Positions 36,479 through 42,009 of a DNA stretch of 64,000 bases are shown here, one piece after another. Position 1 is the stretch's first letter. Each line of letters begins with the position of its first letter. This stretch comes from Leptolinea tardivitalis (GTDB lineage Bacteria > Chloroflexota > Anaerolineae > Anaerolineales > Anaerolineaceae): NCBI RefSeq assembly GCF_001050275.1, contig NZ_BBYA01000014.1, forward strand, positions 62,001-126,000. Reading direction: 5' to 3'. The position numbers and the translations under genes are program-made. The notes under the pieces were generated by a model. The model searched no databases, was not told the origin of the DNA, and saw only the letters and a program-made list of their open reading frames with translations.

Positions 36479-36865
36479 TTAGGAAAATTGTTCACACGAG
36501 CAATCTCCATCAGCCACAGAAGACTCAAAACTCTTTAGGCCATTCTGATACAAACGACCACATAATTCAAACATGCCATAGGGACTGGTTATCAGAGGAA
36601 TTCTTTCATTATTAGCCAGATCAATGGTTTCCTGGGGTGGAAGTTTGCCGCGTACCAGAACAATTGCAGATACATCAGCCATCTGTGCCGTTCGCACAAC
36701 CTGTGGATTGCACAAACCTGTAAGTAGTACTGCTTCAGGCTGAATGGAAGCAAGAACATCACTCATTAAATCGGCGCCGCACCCTCCTTTTATTTCTTTT
36801 GAAAGGTCGGCATCCGGATTGATCAATGTACCTTCAACAGTCTTAATCAGCTCTTCAGCATTCAT
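36479..36865 (-). CDS. DRTGG-domain protein, copy 1
   Basis: A 128-residue DRTGG-domain protein. Pattern: MNAEELIKTVEGTLIN, GCGADLMSDVLASIQPEAVLLTG, AIVLVRGKLPPQETIDLANNERIPLITSPYGMFELCGRL. The C-terminus is cysteine-containing (DGDCSCEQFS). It is the first gene of the hydrogenase island, and hisS diverges 168 bp away across an AT-rich gap in which I see no confident promoter. Confidence 0.85.
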   Translation of the reverse strand: MNAEELIKTVEGTLINPDADLSKEIKGGCGADLMSDVLASIQPEAVLLTGLCNPQVVRTAQMADVSAIVLVRGKLPPQETIDLANNERIPLITSPYGMFELCGRLYQNGLKSFESSVADGDCSCEQFS

Positions 36866-37033
36866 GAAATTCTCTTTTTGAAAAACAATATTTCAGACAA
36901 TTGTACACAAATTTCTTGATTGAATCCAGATAAAGTATGAATACAACTTTAACTGCTGGATAAATTTTTGATTAATATCCACAGCATACAAGATGGTTTA
37001 GAATAGAACCATACCACCAATTTGGAGATAACT

Positions 37034-38302
37034 ATGAAAACTCTAATACAGCCAGTAAAGGGAACAAGAGATTTTTATCCGGAAGAGATGTCTATTCGAA
37101 CATGGCTGTATCAACAAATAAAGAAAGTAAGCTCATCATTTGGATATGAAGAATATGAAGGTCCGATTTTAGAGCGGTTAGACCTTTATGCGGCTAAATC
37201 CGGCGAAGAATTAGTTAAAGAACAATCATTTGTATTTTCCGACAGGGGTGGAGATCAAATCACCCTGCGGCCAGAATTGACGCCAACTCTGGCCAGAATG
37301 ATTGCCCAGAAACAAAATGAGCTGGCTTTTCCTGTACGCTGGTGGTCGTTTGGGCCGTTCTGGCGATATGAACGCCCTCAAAAGGGCAGAACCCGAGAGT
37401 TCTTCCAATGGAATATTGATATTCTCGGAGTTGATTCGCCTGAGGCAGATGCTGAATTGGTTGCGGTGGCGGCCAGTTTTTTCCAGAGTGTTGGATTAAC
37501 TCCAAATGAAATTAAGATTTTCGTAAATAACCGCCGACTGATGGACGTAACACTGGCAGAAATGGGAATTGCTCCAGAAAACCGGAAGACTGTTTTCCAT
37601 ATTATTGATAGGCGTGATAAATTAAATCCCAATTCCTGGAAAGAATATGCTTTAGAATGTGGATTAACTCCAGATCAATTTGAGCAATTGTGCCATATTC
37701 TGGAAGATAAAGACCTTTGGAAGAAGTCCGATGAGTTGGTTCGTTTCTTTAATGTATTAAAAGCTATGAAGTTGGATGAATTCGTTGTTTTTGATCCACA
37801 GGTAATTCGCGGTCTGGAGTATTACACCGGAACTGTATTTGAAGGCCGTGATGCTGCCGGCGAAGGCCGGGCGGTTTTTGGAGGAGGTCGTTACGACAAC
37901 CTCGTAGGGGATGTTGGTGGTGATCCTTTACCTGGTGTTGGGTTTGCCATGGGGGATGTAATGGTTACGCTGTTGCTTCAAAAATATGGAAAAATTCCTG
38001 CCAAGCAAGAACAACAAAAGATGGTGCTGGTGACAATCTTTGATTCCACTTTATTGCCTTCCTCATTTTCGCTTGCCAATAAATTGCGGTTGGAAGGGAT
38101 TACGGTAGTAACATATCCTGAAGCCGTCAAATTACAAAAGCAATTGAAGTTTGCGGATAGAAAAGGTATCCGTTTTGCTGCTATACAAGGGCCGGATGAA
38201 GCTGCTGCTAATACGGTAACATTGAAAGATTTATTAAAGCGGGAACAACAAACAGTGCCGGTTGAGGAAGCCGGAAAAACTTTACAGTCAATGATGGCAT
38301 GA
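37034..38302 (+). CDS. hisS: Histidine-tRNA ligase
   Basis: A 422-residue class II aminoacyl-tRNA synthetase. PVKGTRDFYPEE at the N-terminus, the motif-2 stretch FRYERPQKGRTREFFQ-like (FWRYERPQKGRTREFFQWN), histidine-specific RGLEYYTGTVFEG, GGGRYDNL and the C-terminal anticodon-binding domain are present. ATG at 37034 has GGAG 7 bp upstream; an in-frame TTG at 37022 is less likely. A tRNA-His gene begins 48 bp after the stop. Confidence 0.97.
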   Translation: MKTLIQPVKGTRDFYPEEMSIRTWLYQQIKKVSSSFGYEEYEGPILERLDLYAAKSGEELVKEQSFVFSDRGGDQITLRPELTPTLARMIAQKQNELAFPVRWWSFGPFWRYERPQKGRTREFFQWNIDILGVDSPEADAELVAVAASFFQSVGLTPNEIKIFVNNRRLMDVTLAEMGIAPENRKTVFHIIDRRDKLNPNSWKEYALECGLTPDQFEQLCHILEDKDLWKKSDELVRFFNVLKAMKLDEFVVFDPQVIRGLEYYTGTVFEGRDAAGEGRAVFGGGRYDNLVGDVGGDPLPGVGFAMGDVMVTLLLQKYGKIPAKQEQQKMVLVTIFDSTLLPSSFSLANKLRLEGITVVTYPEAVKLQKQLKFADRKGIRFAAIQGPDEAAANTVTLKDLLKREQQTVPVEEAGKTLQSMMA

Positions 38303-38349: not shown

Positions 38350-38425
38350 GGTGGCTGTAGCTCAACGGCAGAGCGCCACACTGTGGATGTGGATGTTGTG
38401 GGTTCGAAACCCATCAGCCACCCCA
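38350..38425 (+). tRNA. tRNA-His (GTG) with encoded CCA
   Basis: A full cloverleaf: acceptor stem GTGGCTG/CAGCCAC (38351-38357 with 38415-38421), with the His-specific extra G-1 (38350) opposite C73 (38422). D-arm is GCTC/GAGC, anticodon stem CCACA/TGTGG, and anticodon GTG at 38383-38385. The T-arm contains GGTTCGAAACC. CCA is encoded at 38423-38425. It lies directly behind hisS. Confidence 0.97.
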
Positions 38426-38435
38426 CCATATACAG

Positions 38436-38450
38436 AAAAAACCCCTGTTT
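38436..38450 (+). terminator. Left half of the hisS/tRNA-His terminator, split by an IS
   Basis: AAAAAACCCCTG (38436-38447) followed by TTT (38448-38450). It is exactly complementary to CAGGGGTTTTTT at 39859-39870 on the far side of the IS. Removing the IS and one TTT copy restores a 12-bp hairpin with a TTTT loop and a T-run. Confidence 0.85.
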
Positions 38451-38474
38451 TGAACTGCACCCCAAAAGTTGGAC
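38451..38474 (+). repeat. IS left terminal inverted repeat
   Basis: It begins TGAACTGCACCCC and ends AAAAGTTGGAC. About 20 of 24 positions match the reverse complement of 39831-39854. Confidence 0.88.
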
Positions 38475-38502
38475 ACCACCAACGGAAAGGGGTGCAGTTT
38501 TT

Positions 38503-38991
38503 ATGACCAAGTGCAACCAGGAAGAGAAATTATTGGCAATTATTGAAGTTGAAAATGGAGGAAGTATTTATCAAGTAGCAAAGCTACATCAAATAAGCAA
38601 ATCAGAGCTTCAGATGTGGATAAGGAATTATCAACAAAATGGCGAAAATGGGCTAAAAACCCATGCATATGGGTGTACATCGAAACAGAAATATGAAGTC
38701 TTAAAATACATGCATGACAACCAAATATCTTTCAAAGAGACAGGTGTAGTATTAGGGATAAGACCTAGCACAATATGGCAATGGGAGAAAAGATACTTGG
38801 AAAATGGGATAGAGGGGCTAGAAGACAAGAAAAAAGGCAGAAAGCCAAGGGTTCAAAAACCCAAACCACCGATGACCAGGGAAGAAGAGCTATTGGATAG
38901 GATTCAATACCTGGAAGCAGAGAACGCTTACCTAAAAAAATTGAACGCCTTGGTTGGGGAGCGGGAAAAACGCGAAAAAGGGATCAGATAG
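38503..38991 (+). CDS. IS3-family transposase OrfA
   Basis: A 162-residue OrfA with two helix-turn-helix parts (ISKSELQMWIRNYQQNGENGL and LGIRPSTIWQWEKRYLENGIEGL), a basic linker (KKKGRKPRVQKPKP), and a C-terminal leucine-zipper-like helix (LLDRIQYLEAENAYLKKL). The A7 run at 38934-38940 (in CTA AAA AAA TTG) would allow a -1 shift into the orfB frame (KKIERLGWG...), the usual way IS3 elements make OrfAB. ATG at 38503 lies 52 bp inside the left end. The frame itself is intact. Confidence 0.88.
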   Translation: MTKCNQEEKLLAIIEVENGGSIYQVAKLHQISKSELQMWIRNYQQNGENGLKTHAYGCTSKQKYEVLKYMHDNQISFKETGVVLGIRPSTIWQWEKRYLENGIEGLEDKKKGRKPRVQKPKPPMTREEELLDRIQYLEAENAYLKKLNALVGEREKREKGIR

Positions 38992-39825
38992 CTGTTATCT
39001 CTGAACTAAGGCAAAAATATCCATTGAAGAAGCTCCTAAGAACAGCTAAACTCCCCAGGAGCTGCTATTACTATCACCTGAAGCATCAGAGAGAACCTGA
39101 AAAGCATAGTGGTGATCTGGAAGCAATAAAGCAGATCTGTAATGAGAATAAAGGCCGGTATGGCTACCGGCGGGTCACACTGGAACTTCGAAATAGAGGG
39201 CTTCAAATCAATCACAAAGTGGTGATGAGGCTTATGAAACAGGAACACCTAACCTGTCAGTTGAGACCGAAGAAATATCGCTCTTATCGTGGACAGTTGG
39301 GAAGGATTGCTCGAAACCATTTGAGGCGTGATTTCAAGGCAGAAAAGCCGGGTCACAGATGTCACAGAATTCAAATTATTTGGGCAGAAACTCTATCTAT
39401 CCCCAATATTAGATTTCTTCAATGGCGAGATTATTTCTTATACCCTTTCCAAAAGTCCAAATTTCCATCAGATCACCGAAATGCTAAAACAGGCTTTTCA
39501 GAAGGTTCCTGATAACACCCAGTTGATCCTTCATTCTGATCAGGGGTGGCAATACCAGATGCGCCTATACCAGAAGATGCTCAAGGATAAAGGGATCAAA
39601 CAGAGCATGTCCAGAAAGGGTAACTGTTATGACAATAGTGTCATGGAAAACTTCTTCGGGTTACTAAAGTCAGAGTTTTTTTACAACCAAAAGTTTGCTT
39701 CTGTGGATCAGTTCATTACTGAACTATCTGAATATATTGATTACTACAACAATCGTAGAATCAAGGTTAAACTAAAAGGACTGAGCCCTATTCAATTTCG
39801 AACTCAGTCCTTAACTACTACTTAA
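38991..39825 (+). pseudogene. IS3-family transposase OrfB, broken by a frameshift
   Basis: The DDE integrase half of the IS. The first part (ISELRQKYPLKKLLRTAKLPRSCYYYHLKHQ to IARNHLRRDFKAEKPG) is in one frame. The rest (VTDVTEFKLFGQKLYLSPILDFF, SDQGWQYQ, SVMENFFGLLKSEFF, DYYNNRRIK) is in another. The junction is at about 39349-39355, just before the first catalytic Asp. Relatives have a short NQKW-type stretch there, so a deletion of about 11 bp would explain both the missing residues and the shift. All three DDE residues survive in the second frame. The protein should not be made intact. Confidence 0.85.
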
Positions 39826-39830
39826 TTATT

Positions 39831-39854
39831 GTCTAACTTTTCGGGTGCACTACA
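39831..39854 (-). repeat. IS right terminal inverted repeat
   Basis: Read inward on the minus strand it begins TGTAGTGCACCCG and ends AAAAGTTAGAC, an imperfect match to the left end. Confidence 0.88.
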
Positions 39855-39871
39855 TTTTCAGGGGTTTTTTT
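39855..39871 (+). terminator. Right half of the split hisS/tRNA-His terminator
   Basis: The duplicated TTT (39855-39857) is followed by T and CAGGGGTTTTTTT (39859-39871), the complement of 38436-38447. On its own this half cannot fold as a terminator. Confidence 0.8.
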
Positions 39872-40023: not shown

Positions 40024-42009
40024 ATGATTTATCAAACCGGTGATCTCATATTTGCAAAATATCGCGTTGAAACATTAATTGGTAAAGGCACACTTGCCTA
40101 TGTTTACCGGGTTAATAATTTGGCCTCAAAAACCAAGCGGGCTTTGAAAGTCTTGACGCTGGGTGATCCAGGCGTTGGAAGTGGGGAGTATGAATACTGG
40201 CGCCAATACTTCCTTCTTGAAAAACAGCTATATGACAAATTAAACGCTTCACAGGAAAATCCATATCTTTTACAGGTGGTTGATTTAGTCGAAAATAATA
40301 ACGCTCTTCTTCTTGAAATGGAATTTGCTGTTGGTGGAAACCTGACTGACCAGATTCTTTTGTATAGAAGCAAAGGAATTCCGTTCCCAAAAGATAAAGC
40401 ATTGCGAATTGCGTTGGAAATCGCATACAGTCTTGTTCCTTTACATAAGAACCACATTGTCCATAGAGATTTAAAACCAACTAATATCCTTTTCAACGAT
40501 ACTGATCATGTAAAAGTTTCCAGTCTTGGATATTCTCAAATCCCAACAGATTTGAGCCGACAACAAACTACCAAACAGAGTATCAGTATTCATCCTCCCA
40601 TTTCTGATTATGGAAGCCCGGAACAACGTGAATCTATAAAAAGAATTAAACCCTCTTCCGATGTCTATTCGATCGGATTGCTCCTATTTGAAATGCTTAC
40701 AGGAGAGAACTATTCACATATCAATAGTCCTGCCCGGGCAGAAGAATTGACAATAGGTATTCGTCAATCTTTGATTGATTTGTTAGCTCGAATGCTCTCG
40801 CAAAATCCTGATGAGCGACCAGGGGATGGGAGAGAGGCTGCTGCTGAGCTATTCAGAGAAATGGAACGGGAAGAACAGGTACAAAAAGCGCTCTTAGAAA
40901 AAAAACGTAAGGAATCAGAAGAATGGGAGAGAATGAAAAACGCAGAACTCGCCCGCCGGGAAGGCCAGGCAATCAACTCCAGCGTTTTTCATCCAAATGG
41001 CACTAATGACATTAAGACACGTCCGATAGAGAAAGAATTTGGGTTAAAAGATTCAGAAAAACATACATCTATCCGTACATTTGAGGATACTGAAATTACG
41101 GAAGAAACAAATAAACAAAATTCTGATGCCCGTGTTCATGAAATATCAAACGATAAAAACCCCCAGGGGATTGATGAAAAGACAAAAGGCCTGCGAAAAA
41201 CACGTTGGTTCTATTGGCTGAGCATTCCTTCGTTTATCGCTGGGATTGCGATCATATTGATATTGGGACGCGGAAATTTAATCCATGGGTTGGAAATAAA
41301 ACAGAATATTGGGGAGAAAACAGACCCGATACCATCCATTACAACAAAAGCCATCCCATCAAGCTCGCCTGATACTGGAATGATTTTAACCAGTGAATTA
41401 CCAACACAATCAAGTCAACCAGAATTAATAATTGATAATTTAACCACTCAGACGAAAATTCCAAATAAAACGATGGATTCTTCCGGATCTGAGCATGTGT
41501 TGTCTGGAGTTATTCAGAATTCCAGTTTTGAAGATTCAACAGATTGGGTGAATAAGGTTGGCGAGTCGCATATTCTGGGAAGTTATTCAAAAACCTGGGC
41601 CAGTGAAGGATCATCAAGTTATCGAATCACGCTTTTTGGAGATAAAGTTTATGAATTCTGCTTCCTTCCAGGGATGCGGACTAGTGTAAACCAGACTATA
41701 GACCTCACAGCAGTTGATGAAATATGGTTTGATATGTTTTTCAAACCCGGAAAGAGCCAAAAAGATTCAAGTGGAAATCCAATTAGAACAAAAGTCATTG
41801 CCTTTATTGATAAAGATCAAATATATCAATCCGATGATGGAATATCCGGGGAAATGATTGACAACAAGATAATATTGAACCAAAAATACACCGGAAAGCA
41901 TGAATTGAAATTCGGATTGATGGTAATGTCAAAATTCTGTGCAAAAGGGAATTCCGAAGAAGACAATTTGTCTGTCTATTTTGATAATATCCGGTTAATA
42001 TCCAAATAA
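40024..42009 (+). CDS. Membrane Ser/Thr kinase-like protein lacking the DFG aspartate
   Basis: A 661-residue PknB-like protein. The N-terminal kinase domain (about 10-275) has a Gly-rich loop GKGTLAYVY, VAIK-type ALKVL (K42), catalytic loop HRDLKPTN (147-154), activation-end GSPEQ and SSDVYSIG. The Mg-binding DFG is replaced by SLG (167-169, in VKVSSLGYS), so normal catalysis is doubtful. A Glu/Lys-rich coiled region (280-315), one membrane span (about 396-415) and an extracytoplasmic Ser/Thr linker follow. The C-terminal beta domain (about 500-661, starting NSSFEDSTDWV, ending VYFDNIRLIS) looks like a jelly-roll carbohydrate-binding-like module. It may be a sensor pseudokinase. Confidence 0.85.
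   Translation: MIYQTGDLIFAKYRVETLIGKGTLAYVYRVNNLASKTKRALKVLTLGDPGVGSGEYEYWRQYFLLEKQLYDKLNASQENPYLLQVVDLVENNNALLLEMEFAVGGNLTDQILLYRSKGIPFPKDKALRIALEIAYSLVPLHKNHIVHRDLKPTNILFNDTDHVKVSSLGYSQIPTDLSRQQTTKQSISIHPPISDYGSPEQRESIKRIKPSSDVYSIGLLLFEMLTGENYSHINSPARAEELTIGIRQSLIDLLARMLSQNPDERPGDGREAAAELFREMEREEQVQKALLEKKRKESEEWERMKNAELARREGQAINSSVFHPNGTNDIKTRPIEKEFGLKDSEKHTSIRTFEDTEITEETNKQNSDARVHEISNDKNPQGIDEKTKGLRKTRWFYWLSIPSFIAGIAIILILGRGNLIHGLEIKQNIGEKTDPIPSITTKAIPSSSPDTGMILTSELPTQSSQPELIIDNLTTQTKIPNKTMDSSGSEHVLSGVIQNSSFEDSTDWVNKVGESHILGSYSKTWASEGSSSYRITLFGDKVYEFCFLPGMRTSVNQTIDLTAVDEIWFDMFFKPGKSQKDSSGNPIRTKVIAFIDKDQIYQSDDGISGEMIDNKIILNQKYTGKHELKFGLMVMSKFCAKGNSEEDNLSVYFDNIRLISK

Follow-up and report, generated by a model that had tools for sequence, protein, structure and literature searches.

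An IS150-like insertion sequence in the loop of a tRNA-His terminator of Leptolinea tardivitalis and the hairpins flanking its relatives

Targeting of hairpins by bacterial insertion sequences (IS) is already known, both at the axes of repetitive extragenic palindromic (REP) sequences (PMC1525189) and in the stems of transcription terminators (PMC4923244). The IS3-family element ISPsy8 enters hairpins at their axis of symmetry and generates a 3-bp duplication (PMC1525189), and IS1272/TnSha1, an IS1182-family element of staphylococci, has hairpin targets without a consensus, including five terminators confirmed by RNA-seq (PMC4923244). The element considered here is an IS150-like member of the IS3 family in Leptolinea tardivitalis (Chloroflexota), lying in the loop of the predicted intrinsic terminator that follows the tRNA-His gene. 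It was analyzed within a 64,000-nt stretch of contig NZ_BBYA01000014.1, referred to as the window, and all coordinates are relative to position 1 of the window.

Hairpins at the insertion sites

Removal of the IS together with one TTT copy of its target duplication reconstitutes a 12-bp stem without mismatches around a TTTT loop, with a folding energy of -16.4 kcal/mol (z -4.5; 0 of 200 dinucleotide shuffles equally good), one extra T lying between the right TTT copy and the 3' arm CAGGGGTTTTTT. The 5' arm starts 10 bp past tRNA-His and the IS 25 bp past the tRNA end. Direct reading and folding thus bear out the initial annotation, in which the IS was proposed to split such a hairpin; its TG...CA ends, imperfect inverted repeats and 3-bp duplication, likewise claimed there, are read directly from the sequence and are those of the IS3 family. 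The comparison with an empty site that the annotation had called for is provided by a genome of the same genus (G001), 73% identical over hisS/tRNA-His and free of the IS, in which an intact hairpin, AGAAAATCCCCGATTTTTTCGGGGATTTTTG, stands 11 bp past tRNA-His, with a different stem sequence at a matching position. Two of the three same-genus genomes gave the locus: the second (G003) has no clear terminator directly past tRNA-His and the third (G002) gave no match in the search, so that both are uninformative.

The further suggestion that terminator loops might be a preferred target was examined among relatives of the element, taken as the best 80 matches in a scan of named genome contigs (60-82% identity over 157 transposase residues) and originating from Bacillota, Bacteroidota, Spirochaetota and Chloroflexota. 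Both ends were set in 54 of the 80, the remaining 26 having no delimited end; with the window copy these make 55, of which ten were dropped for short flanks or N, leaving 45 copies (44 relatives and the window copy). Ends were also unreliable or missing at L224, L228, L241 and L295, and automatic delimitation of 20 mixed loci gave mostly unreliable ends, which are excluded from the counts. For each copy the duplex energy of left flank against right flank was computed with one duplication removed (3 bp if none was found), and the control consisted of 1980 mismatched pairs made of left and right flanks from different copies. The duplex energy measures insertion inside a hairpin, and the mismatched control retains base composition and A/T tracts.

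The flanks of the same copy pair with a median energy of -14.6 kcal/mol as against -6.6 for mismatched pairs. Duplexes of -10 kcal/mol or lower occur in 33 of the 45 copies versus 17.8% of mismatched pairs, those of -15 or lower in 21 of 45 versus 2.6%, and the true right flank is the best partner of all for 23 copies. The pairing signal is highest at offset 0 and near background by about +-12 nt; when the junction is shifted by 12-30 nt the count falls to 1-9 of 45. An earlier metric that counted stems with loops of at most 9 nt (21/45 against a control mean of 4.9) proved too strict and was replaced by the duplex energy.

The position within the hairpin was determined for 28 strong cases with a duplex of -15 kcal/mol or lower, i.e. 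21 of the 45 copies and seven from two genomes, G165 and G166. A duplication was detected in 22 of the 28. In 19 cases its centre is no more than 1 nt from the middle of the loop, and in 23 no more than 2 nt from it; the loops have a median length of 5.5 nt. Duplications are mostly 3-4 bp and located in the loop, and neither they nor the hairpins share a primary sequence by eye. A/T runs, scored leniently as any 8-nt window with at least six T on the right or at least six A on the left, accompany all 33 hairpin-flanked copies (T runs in 30, A runs in 27), as compared with 8/33 and 10/32, respectively, in stretches 33-58 nt away, a pattern that fits bidirectional intrinsic terminators.

The two genomes come from a search of ten, eight of which had one match each. 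All six delimited copies of G166 (a seventh was not delimited) lie in strong terminator-like hairpins of differing sequence (-22 to -42 kcal/mol) with 3-bp duplications; they belong to three subfamilies at 67, 53 and 44% identity, and one of them, L116, is already among the 45. Of the four copies in G165 two are clear, one is weak (-11.9) and one negative (-5.9). More distant relatives in G035 (38% identity) have duplexes of -15 or lower in 4 of 6, with a sole clean loop insertion by eye; the exceptions include one insertion in an arm and one left flank that is itself palindromic. A control set of 19 copies of other IS3-family elements from three genomes, in which the ends are doubtful for L285, L286 and L289, showed no bias (4/19 at -10 or lower versus 22% of mismatched pairs). 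In a quick tree of 61 transposase pieces (157 columns, several long branches, midpoint root, IS150 being the one IS3 subgroup sampled by name) the window element groups with E. coli IS150, to which it is 58% identical, in a clade of 51 rows that has 100% SH-aLRT support. These comparisons show at the level of sequence that a broad IS150-like clade often inserts at the dyad of predicted intrinsic-terminator hairpins, and the suggested preference for terminator loops is upheld by the flank pairing and loop centring in relatives together with the negative result for other IS3 elements.

A further IS3-family element in the genome of the window copy (L037, G000:C13) lies between long inverted repeats with a duplex of -37.7, its ends being untrusted. 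By eye, several copies in Flavobacteriaceae (L120, L138-L141, L145) are situated at one base of a short hairpin of the GAAAATCC-TCGC-GGATTTTC type, possibly a recurrent target repeat.

The left-end hairpin and its solo counterparts

The left terminal repeat of the window IS pairs with a downstream arm around an inner 5-bp hairpin, and Ts and the ATG of orfA follow (Table 1). Among 57 left ends, some near-identical (51 of the 80 relatives, the window copy, three more from G165/G166, IS150 and ISEnfa3), at least 8 of 9 positions pair in 38, versus 1.2% of shuffles. Changes on both arms compensate each other, as in TGCACCCC/GGGGTGCA, TGCCCCC/GGGGGCA and TGAACCC/GGGTTCA, the covariation counts excluding an alignment that mixed both strands of the palindrome. 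Of the 38 paired left ends, 33 combine an ATG within 15 nt with a Shine-Dalgarno-like core that lies in the 3' arm or next to it, and 35 have at least four T within 8 nt of the arm end. Rfam gave no match to this hairpin at E <= 1. The left end thus looks like a terminator combined with a mask over the orfA start; such hairpins shield transposase genes from outside transcription. Left ends may also be repeated: in Flavobacterium sp. Root420 (L144:1972-2111) two tandem IS left ends stand 96 bp apart next to an N-containing flank, and at L148:2040-2120 a second left-end-like sequence occurs ~30 bp inside the left end, the inner copy forming a hairpin.

This structure bears on the remaining claim of the initial annotation, that the insertion should abolish termination after tRNA-His or leave read-through into the transposase. 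As worded the claim is not supported: simple abolition of termination is doubtful because the IS left end brings its own terminator-like hairpin, T-run and orfA ATG, and it is more likely that the host terminator has been replaced and the transposase start masked from read-through.

Hairpins of the same kind also occur without the rest of the IS. A pattern of identical 41-bp length has seven matches in the L. tardivitalis genome, the IS and six solo copies, and its reversed control none. The solo copies correspond to the first ~50 bp of the IS and match its end at up to 48 of 48 bases. Three of them (L002, L003 and L004) lie in terminator-like hairpins between convergent open frames, with flank duplexes of -22.6, -20.2 and -20.2 kcal/mol, and the other three have flank duplexes of -6.3 to -8.5. 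L002 has the duplication GTCG, and in its predicted fold both the host stem and the stem of the mini-element are retained. The solo element L005 (G000:C10:508260-508311) reads as a complete terminator alone, AAAAAACTGCACCCC...GGGGTGCAGTTTTTTTT, and has possibly been taken over by the host.

A search of the host family with a covariance model (E <= 0.1) picked up related hairpins in 42 of 147 genomes, many of them left ends of full IS copies. Sixty places were fetched, and inspection by eye classed 33 as solo. Together with the six from the own genome these make 39, of which 13 reach a flank duplex of -15 or lower (mismatched pairs, 2.9%); L163, among these 13, matches the model weakly. Re-examination of 32 solo places found TG..CA bounds in 19 and TG..CA-bounded duplications of at least 3 bp in seven (shuffled mean 0.8, maximum 4). 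The solo hairpins, which share repeats with the resident IS, are candidate miniature inverted-repeat transposable elements (MITEs). Three mini-elements (L182, L187 and L200) carry at one end GTGCACTACA, which is the right-repeat tip of the IS; this suggests for them an origin by internal deletion between similar GGGTGCA stretches, and the solo hairpins would be non-autonomous derivatives moved by the IS transposase.

In five genomes of the host family (G116, G077, G008, G150 and G061) many left-end hairpins are located near contig ends, at similar distances within a genome. Assemblies in the host family are therefore probably interrupted by IS copies of this group, and counts of full copies would accordingly be too low.

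Proposed explanation and its rivals

The explanation that best accounts for these features as a whole, at a probability of about 0.73, is that the clade would target terminator dyads by their structure, that the left-end hairpin would replace the host terminator and silence orfA, and that ~50-bp derivatives of this end would be mobile. In such a scheme the OrfAB transposase, or its complex with an IS circle junction, would recognize not a sequence motif but the palindrome or the extruded hairpin; for IS2, also of the IS3 family, the circular junction is described as the attacking intermediate (PMC3299598). On transcripts arriving from the host gene the left-end hairpin would terminate transcription or block translation, so that insertion would exchange the host terminator for an IS-borne one with the transposase remaining silent. 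The solo ~50-bp derivatives would be mobilized by the same transposase, and the right tip at the end of three of them is what fusion of the left hairpin to that tip via internal deletion would produce. A host terminator should still be able to fold around a mini-element that has entered its loop. A more pointed proposal is that two traits are coupled in a widespread IS150-like clade: entry at the dyad of terminator loops, the terminators being recognized as DNA hairpins, and a portable termination and masking hairpin in the left repeat. Landing would then be nearly neutral for the host and the transposase silenced by design, and the ~50-bp form of the hairpin, little more than two abutted ends, would be mobile, nest within host terminators and spread terminator modules in genomes of the host family. 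This proposal is tentative and is given somewhat less than even odds.

If this is correct, a large branch of the IS3 family lands on a structure found after very many operons, and landing in terminators would explain spread across phyla with little damage. There would be a simple rule for landing sites and a case of an IS that brings a replacement terminator; some host terminators would descend from, or be extended by, mini-elements. Structure-specific target choice by a DDE transposase would also be directly testable.

A number of observations weigh against this explanation. No pairing across the site at -10 kcal/mol or lower is found in 12 of the 45 copies, and by eye insertions at L099, L120, L145 and L040 are in an arm or at the hairpin base, not in the loop. 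One Chloroflexi relative has a weak hairpin (-10.3), and the second of the two is not delimitable. The rows are partly non-independent, as identical transposases in G165 differ in flank pairing. Pairing falls below 8 of 9 positions in 19 of the 57 left ends, though many of these still fold as hairpins, and 26 of the 39 solo mini-elements fall short of -15. IS150 itself looks different: among 12 E. coli chromosome copies hand-chosen from 40 rows and representing seven distinct sites, 10 adjoin an annotated hok or mok gene, the flank duplexes range from -6.8 to -18.0 with three of the seven sites at -10 or lower (-12.0, -10.6 and -18.0), and several folds place a large hairpin beside the site, not around it; a plasmid IS150-type copy, L294, has a flank duplex of -1.9. 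The vicinity of hok/mok looks like a different and more specific target within the IS150 subgroup. The IS150/ISKpn8 loci from E. coli and Klebsiella comprise L294, L295 and L297-L308, and both plasmid copies also have an annotated hok-type gene nearby.

Survivorship, by which insertion would occur anywhere and only harmless intergenic copies, especially those following genes, would persist, draws on terminators being the places where insertions do least harm, and 28 of 40 hairpin-flanked copies have an open frame on their right that is directed at the IS. Their neighbouring genes are convergent in 13 cases, both opposite to the IS in 12, both along it in five, divergent in three and unassigned on one side in seven; these open-frame calls are rough, and no conclusion on orientation is drawn from them. 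The loop-centre precision makes survivorship improbable, since harmlessness would not favour the centre of a loop over positions 15 nt off, whereas at 12-30 nt from the site the signal is close to background and 23 of the 28 strong cases are loop-centred to within 2 nt; the bias is also lacking in the other IS3-family elements, which come from genomes of the same phylum. Attraction by sequence rather than structure, to a pair of A- and T-tracts or an AT-rich bend near gene ends, would accord with the A/T runs at every hairpin-flanked copy and with the predicted curvature reported to adjoin IS2 targets (PMC3299598), but is hard to reconcile with mismatched pairs that retain the tracts yet pair far less well, with GC-rich stems that are hit without long tracts (L238, L026) and with duplications that have no consensus by eye, and it is accordingly considered quite unlikely. 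That the window copy is a single random hit on a terminator, without any general preference, might be argued from the one full copy in the assembly with its broken transposase; this idea was set aside as already contradicted by the flank pairing of relatives, the six of six copies in G166 and the control on other IS3 elements, as well as by the three same-genome solo mini-elements with strongly pairing flanks, and it retains hardly any likelihood.

For the solo hairpins the alternative is that they are ordinary terminators, alike by chance or descent and not mobile. Some of them (L005, L164) indeed look like simple hairpins followed by T-runs, at which no duplication could be detected, and 25 of the 32 examined lack a duplication at TG..CA bounds. 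Against this view stand the up to 48 of 48 bases shared with the IS end, the 41-bp pattern matched at seven places including the IS when its reversed control matches none, the excess of bounded duplications over shuffles and the IS right tip carried by L182, L187 and L200; it seems unlikely, though less so than those above.

The window element and its place among known systems

The features of the locus are collected in Table 1. The C-terminal piece of orfB matches the NCBIfam model transpos_IS3 (NF033516) with 200.6 bits (cut-off 160) and contains rve and rve_2 in Pfam, i.e. a DDE transposase of the IS3 family; two other transposase pieces score 55.5 and 108.6 bits, under the whole-protein cut-off. 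With respect to the IS3-type arrangement of overlapping orfA and orfB with a programmed frameshift, orfA and a second frame are present and orfB is disrupted, being split into two overlapping frames (39024-39512 and 39328-39825) where an 82% identical relative, L083, has a single 268-codon frame. The element is the sole full-length copy found in its assembly, an IS150-like insertion sequence of the IS3 family in degenerate form. To its right a large open frame (40024-42009) encodes a protein kinase domain, and a small DRTGG-domain protein (36482-36865, - strand) is encoded just upstream of hisS on the opposite strand.

Table 1. Coordinates of the tRNA-His locus and of the inserted element in the window
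Feature	Position	Strand	Basis
hisS (histidine--tRNA ligase), gene upstream	37022..38302	+	TIGR00442, 373 bits (cut-off 286.75)
tRNA-His (GTG)	38351..38425	+	ARAGORN; Rfam RF00005
Interrupted intrinsic terminator (predicted), 5' arm AAAAAACCCCTG	38436..38447	+	read from sequence, folding
TTT target-site duplication, left copy, in terminator loop	38448..38450	+	read from sequence
IS3-family (IS150-like) insertion sequence, 1404 bp, TG...CA	38451..39854	+	sequence, NCBIfam
Left terminal inverted repeat TGAACTGCACCCCAAAAGTTGGACA	38451..38475	+	sequence; compared with relatives
Left-end nested hairpin: 12-bp outer stem 38452-38463/38489-38500, 5-bp inner stem, then T-run and orfA ATG	38452..38500	+	
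orfA, 162 aa, helix-turn-helix (HTH_28, HTH_Tnp_1)	38503..38991	+	
orfB region (HTH_21, rve, rve_2), frame broken near 39350; start coordinate approximate	38982..39825	+	
Right terminal inverted repeat, read from right: TGTAGTGCACCCGAAAAGTTAGACAA	39829..39854	-	sequence
TTT target-site duplication, right copy	39855..39857	+	read from sequence
Interrupted terminator, 3' arm CAGGGGTTTTTT	39859..39870	+	read from sequence, folding

Among the papers listed by searches of open-access full text, some of which matched far more papers than were listed, there was no report of IS3-family insertion into terminator loops, nor of the combination of an IS150-like element, terminator loops, a retained duplication, several phyla, a terminator-like left end and ~50-bp derivatives; absence from print is not established for either. 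Among the closest described elements are those of the IS150 subgroup (E. coli IS150, ISKpn8 and E. faecium ISEnfa3), in which the C-terminal transposase piece is 58-66% identical to that of the window element and the end sequences and length are similar. IS150 differs in a left end that folds weakly (-9.1) and in the location near hok genes described above, several copies having a large hairpin to one side; in one copy of ISEnfa3 the flanks pair at a borderline -10.4 and the left end forms a hairpin.

The elements that target REP sequences or palindromic units (PU), IS1397, ISKpn1 and ISPsy8, belong like the window element to the IS3 family. They differ in using a single repeat family of conserved sequence, whereas the window clade enters terminator-like hairpins without a common sequence in several phyla; insertion is at a dyad in both, but the six hairpins hit in G166 differ in sequence, no search having been made for repeat families among single targets. 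IS1272 differs in having another transposase family, insertion in the stem, partial deletion of the hairpin and no target duplication, in contrast to the mostly loop insertion, common 3-4 bp duplications, absence of evident deletion and IS3-family transposase of the window clade. The solo hairpins for their part resemble MITEs, REPINs and SPRITE, which are short, palindromic and possibly mobile repeats: REPINs are doublets that form hairpins (PMC3116915), and the pneumococcal SPRITE resembles a terminator, with a duplication that its authors could not establish (PMC3049150). They differ from all of these in being ~50 bp long, in consisting of the left-end hairpin of an IS and in being, in some cases, nested within host terminators.

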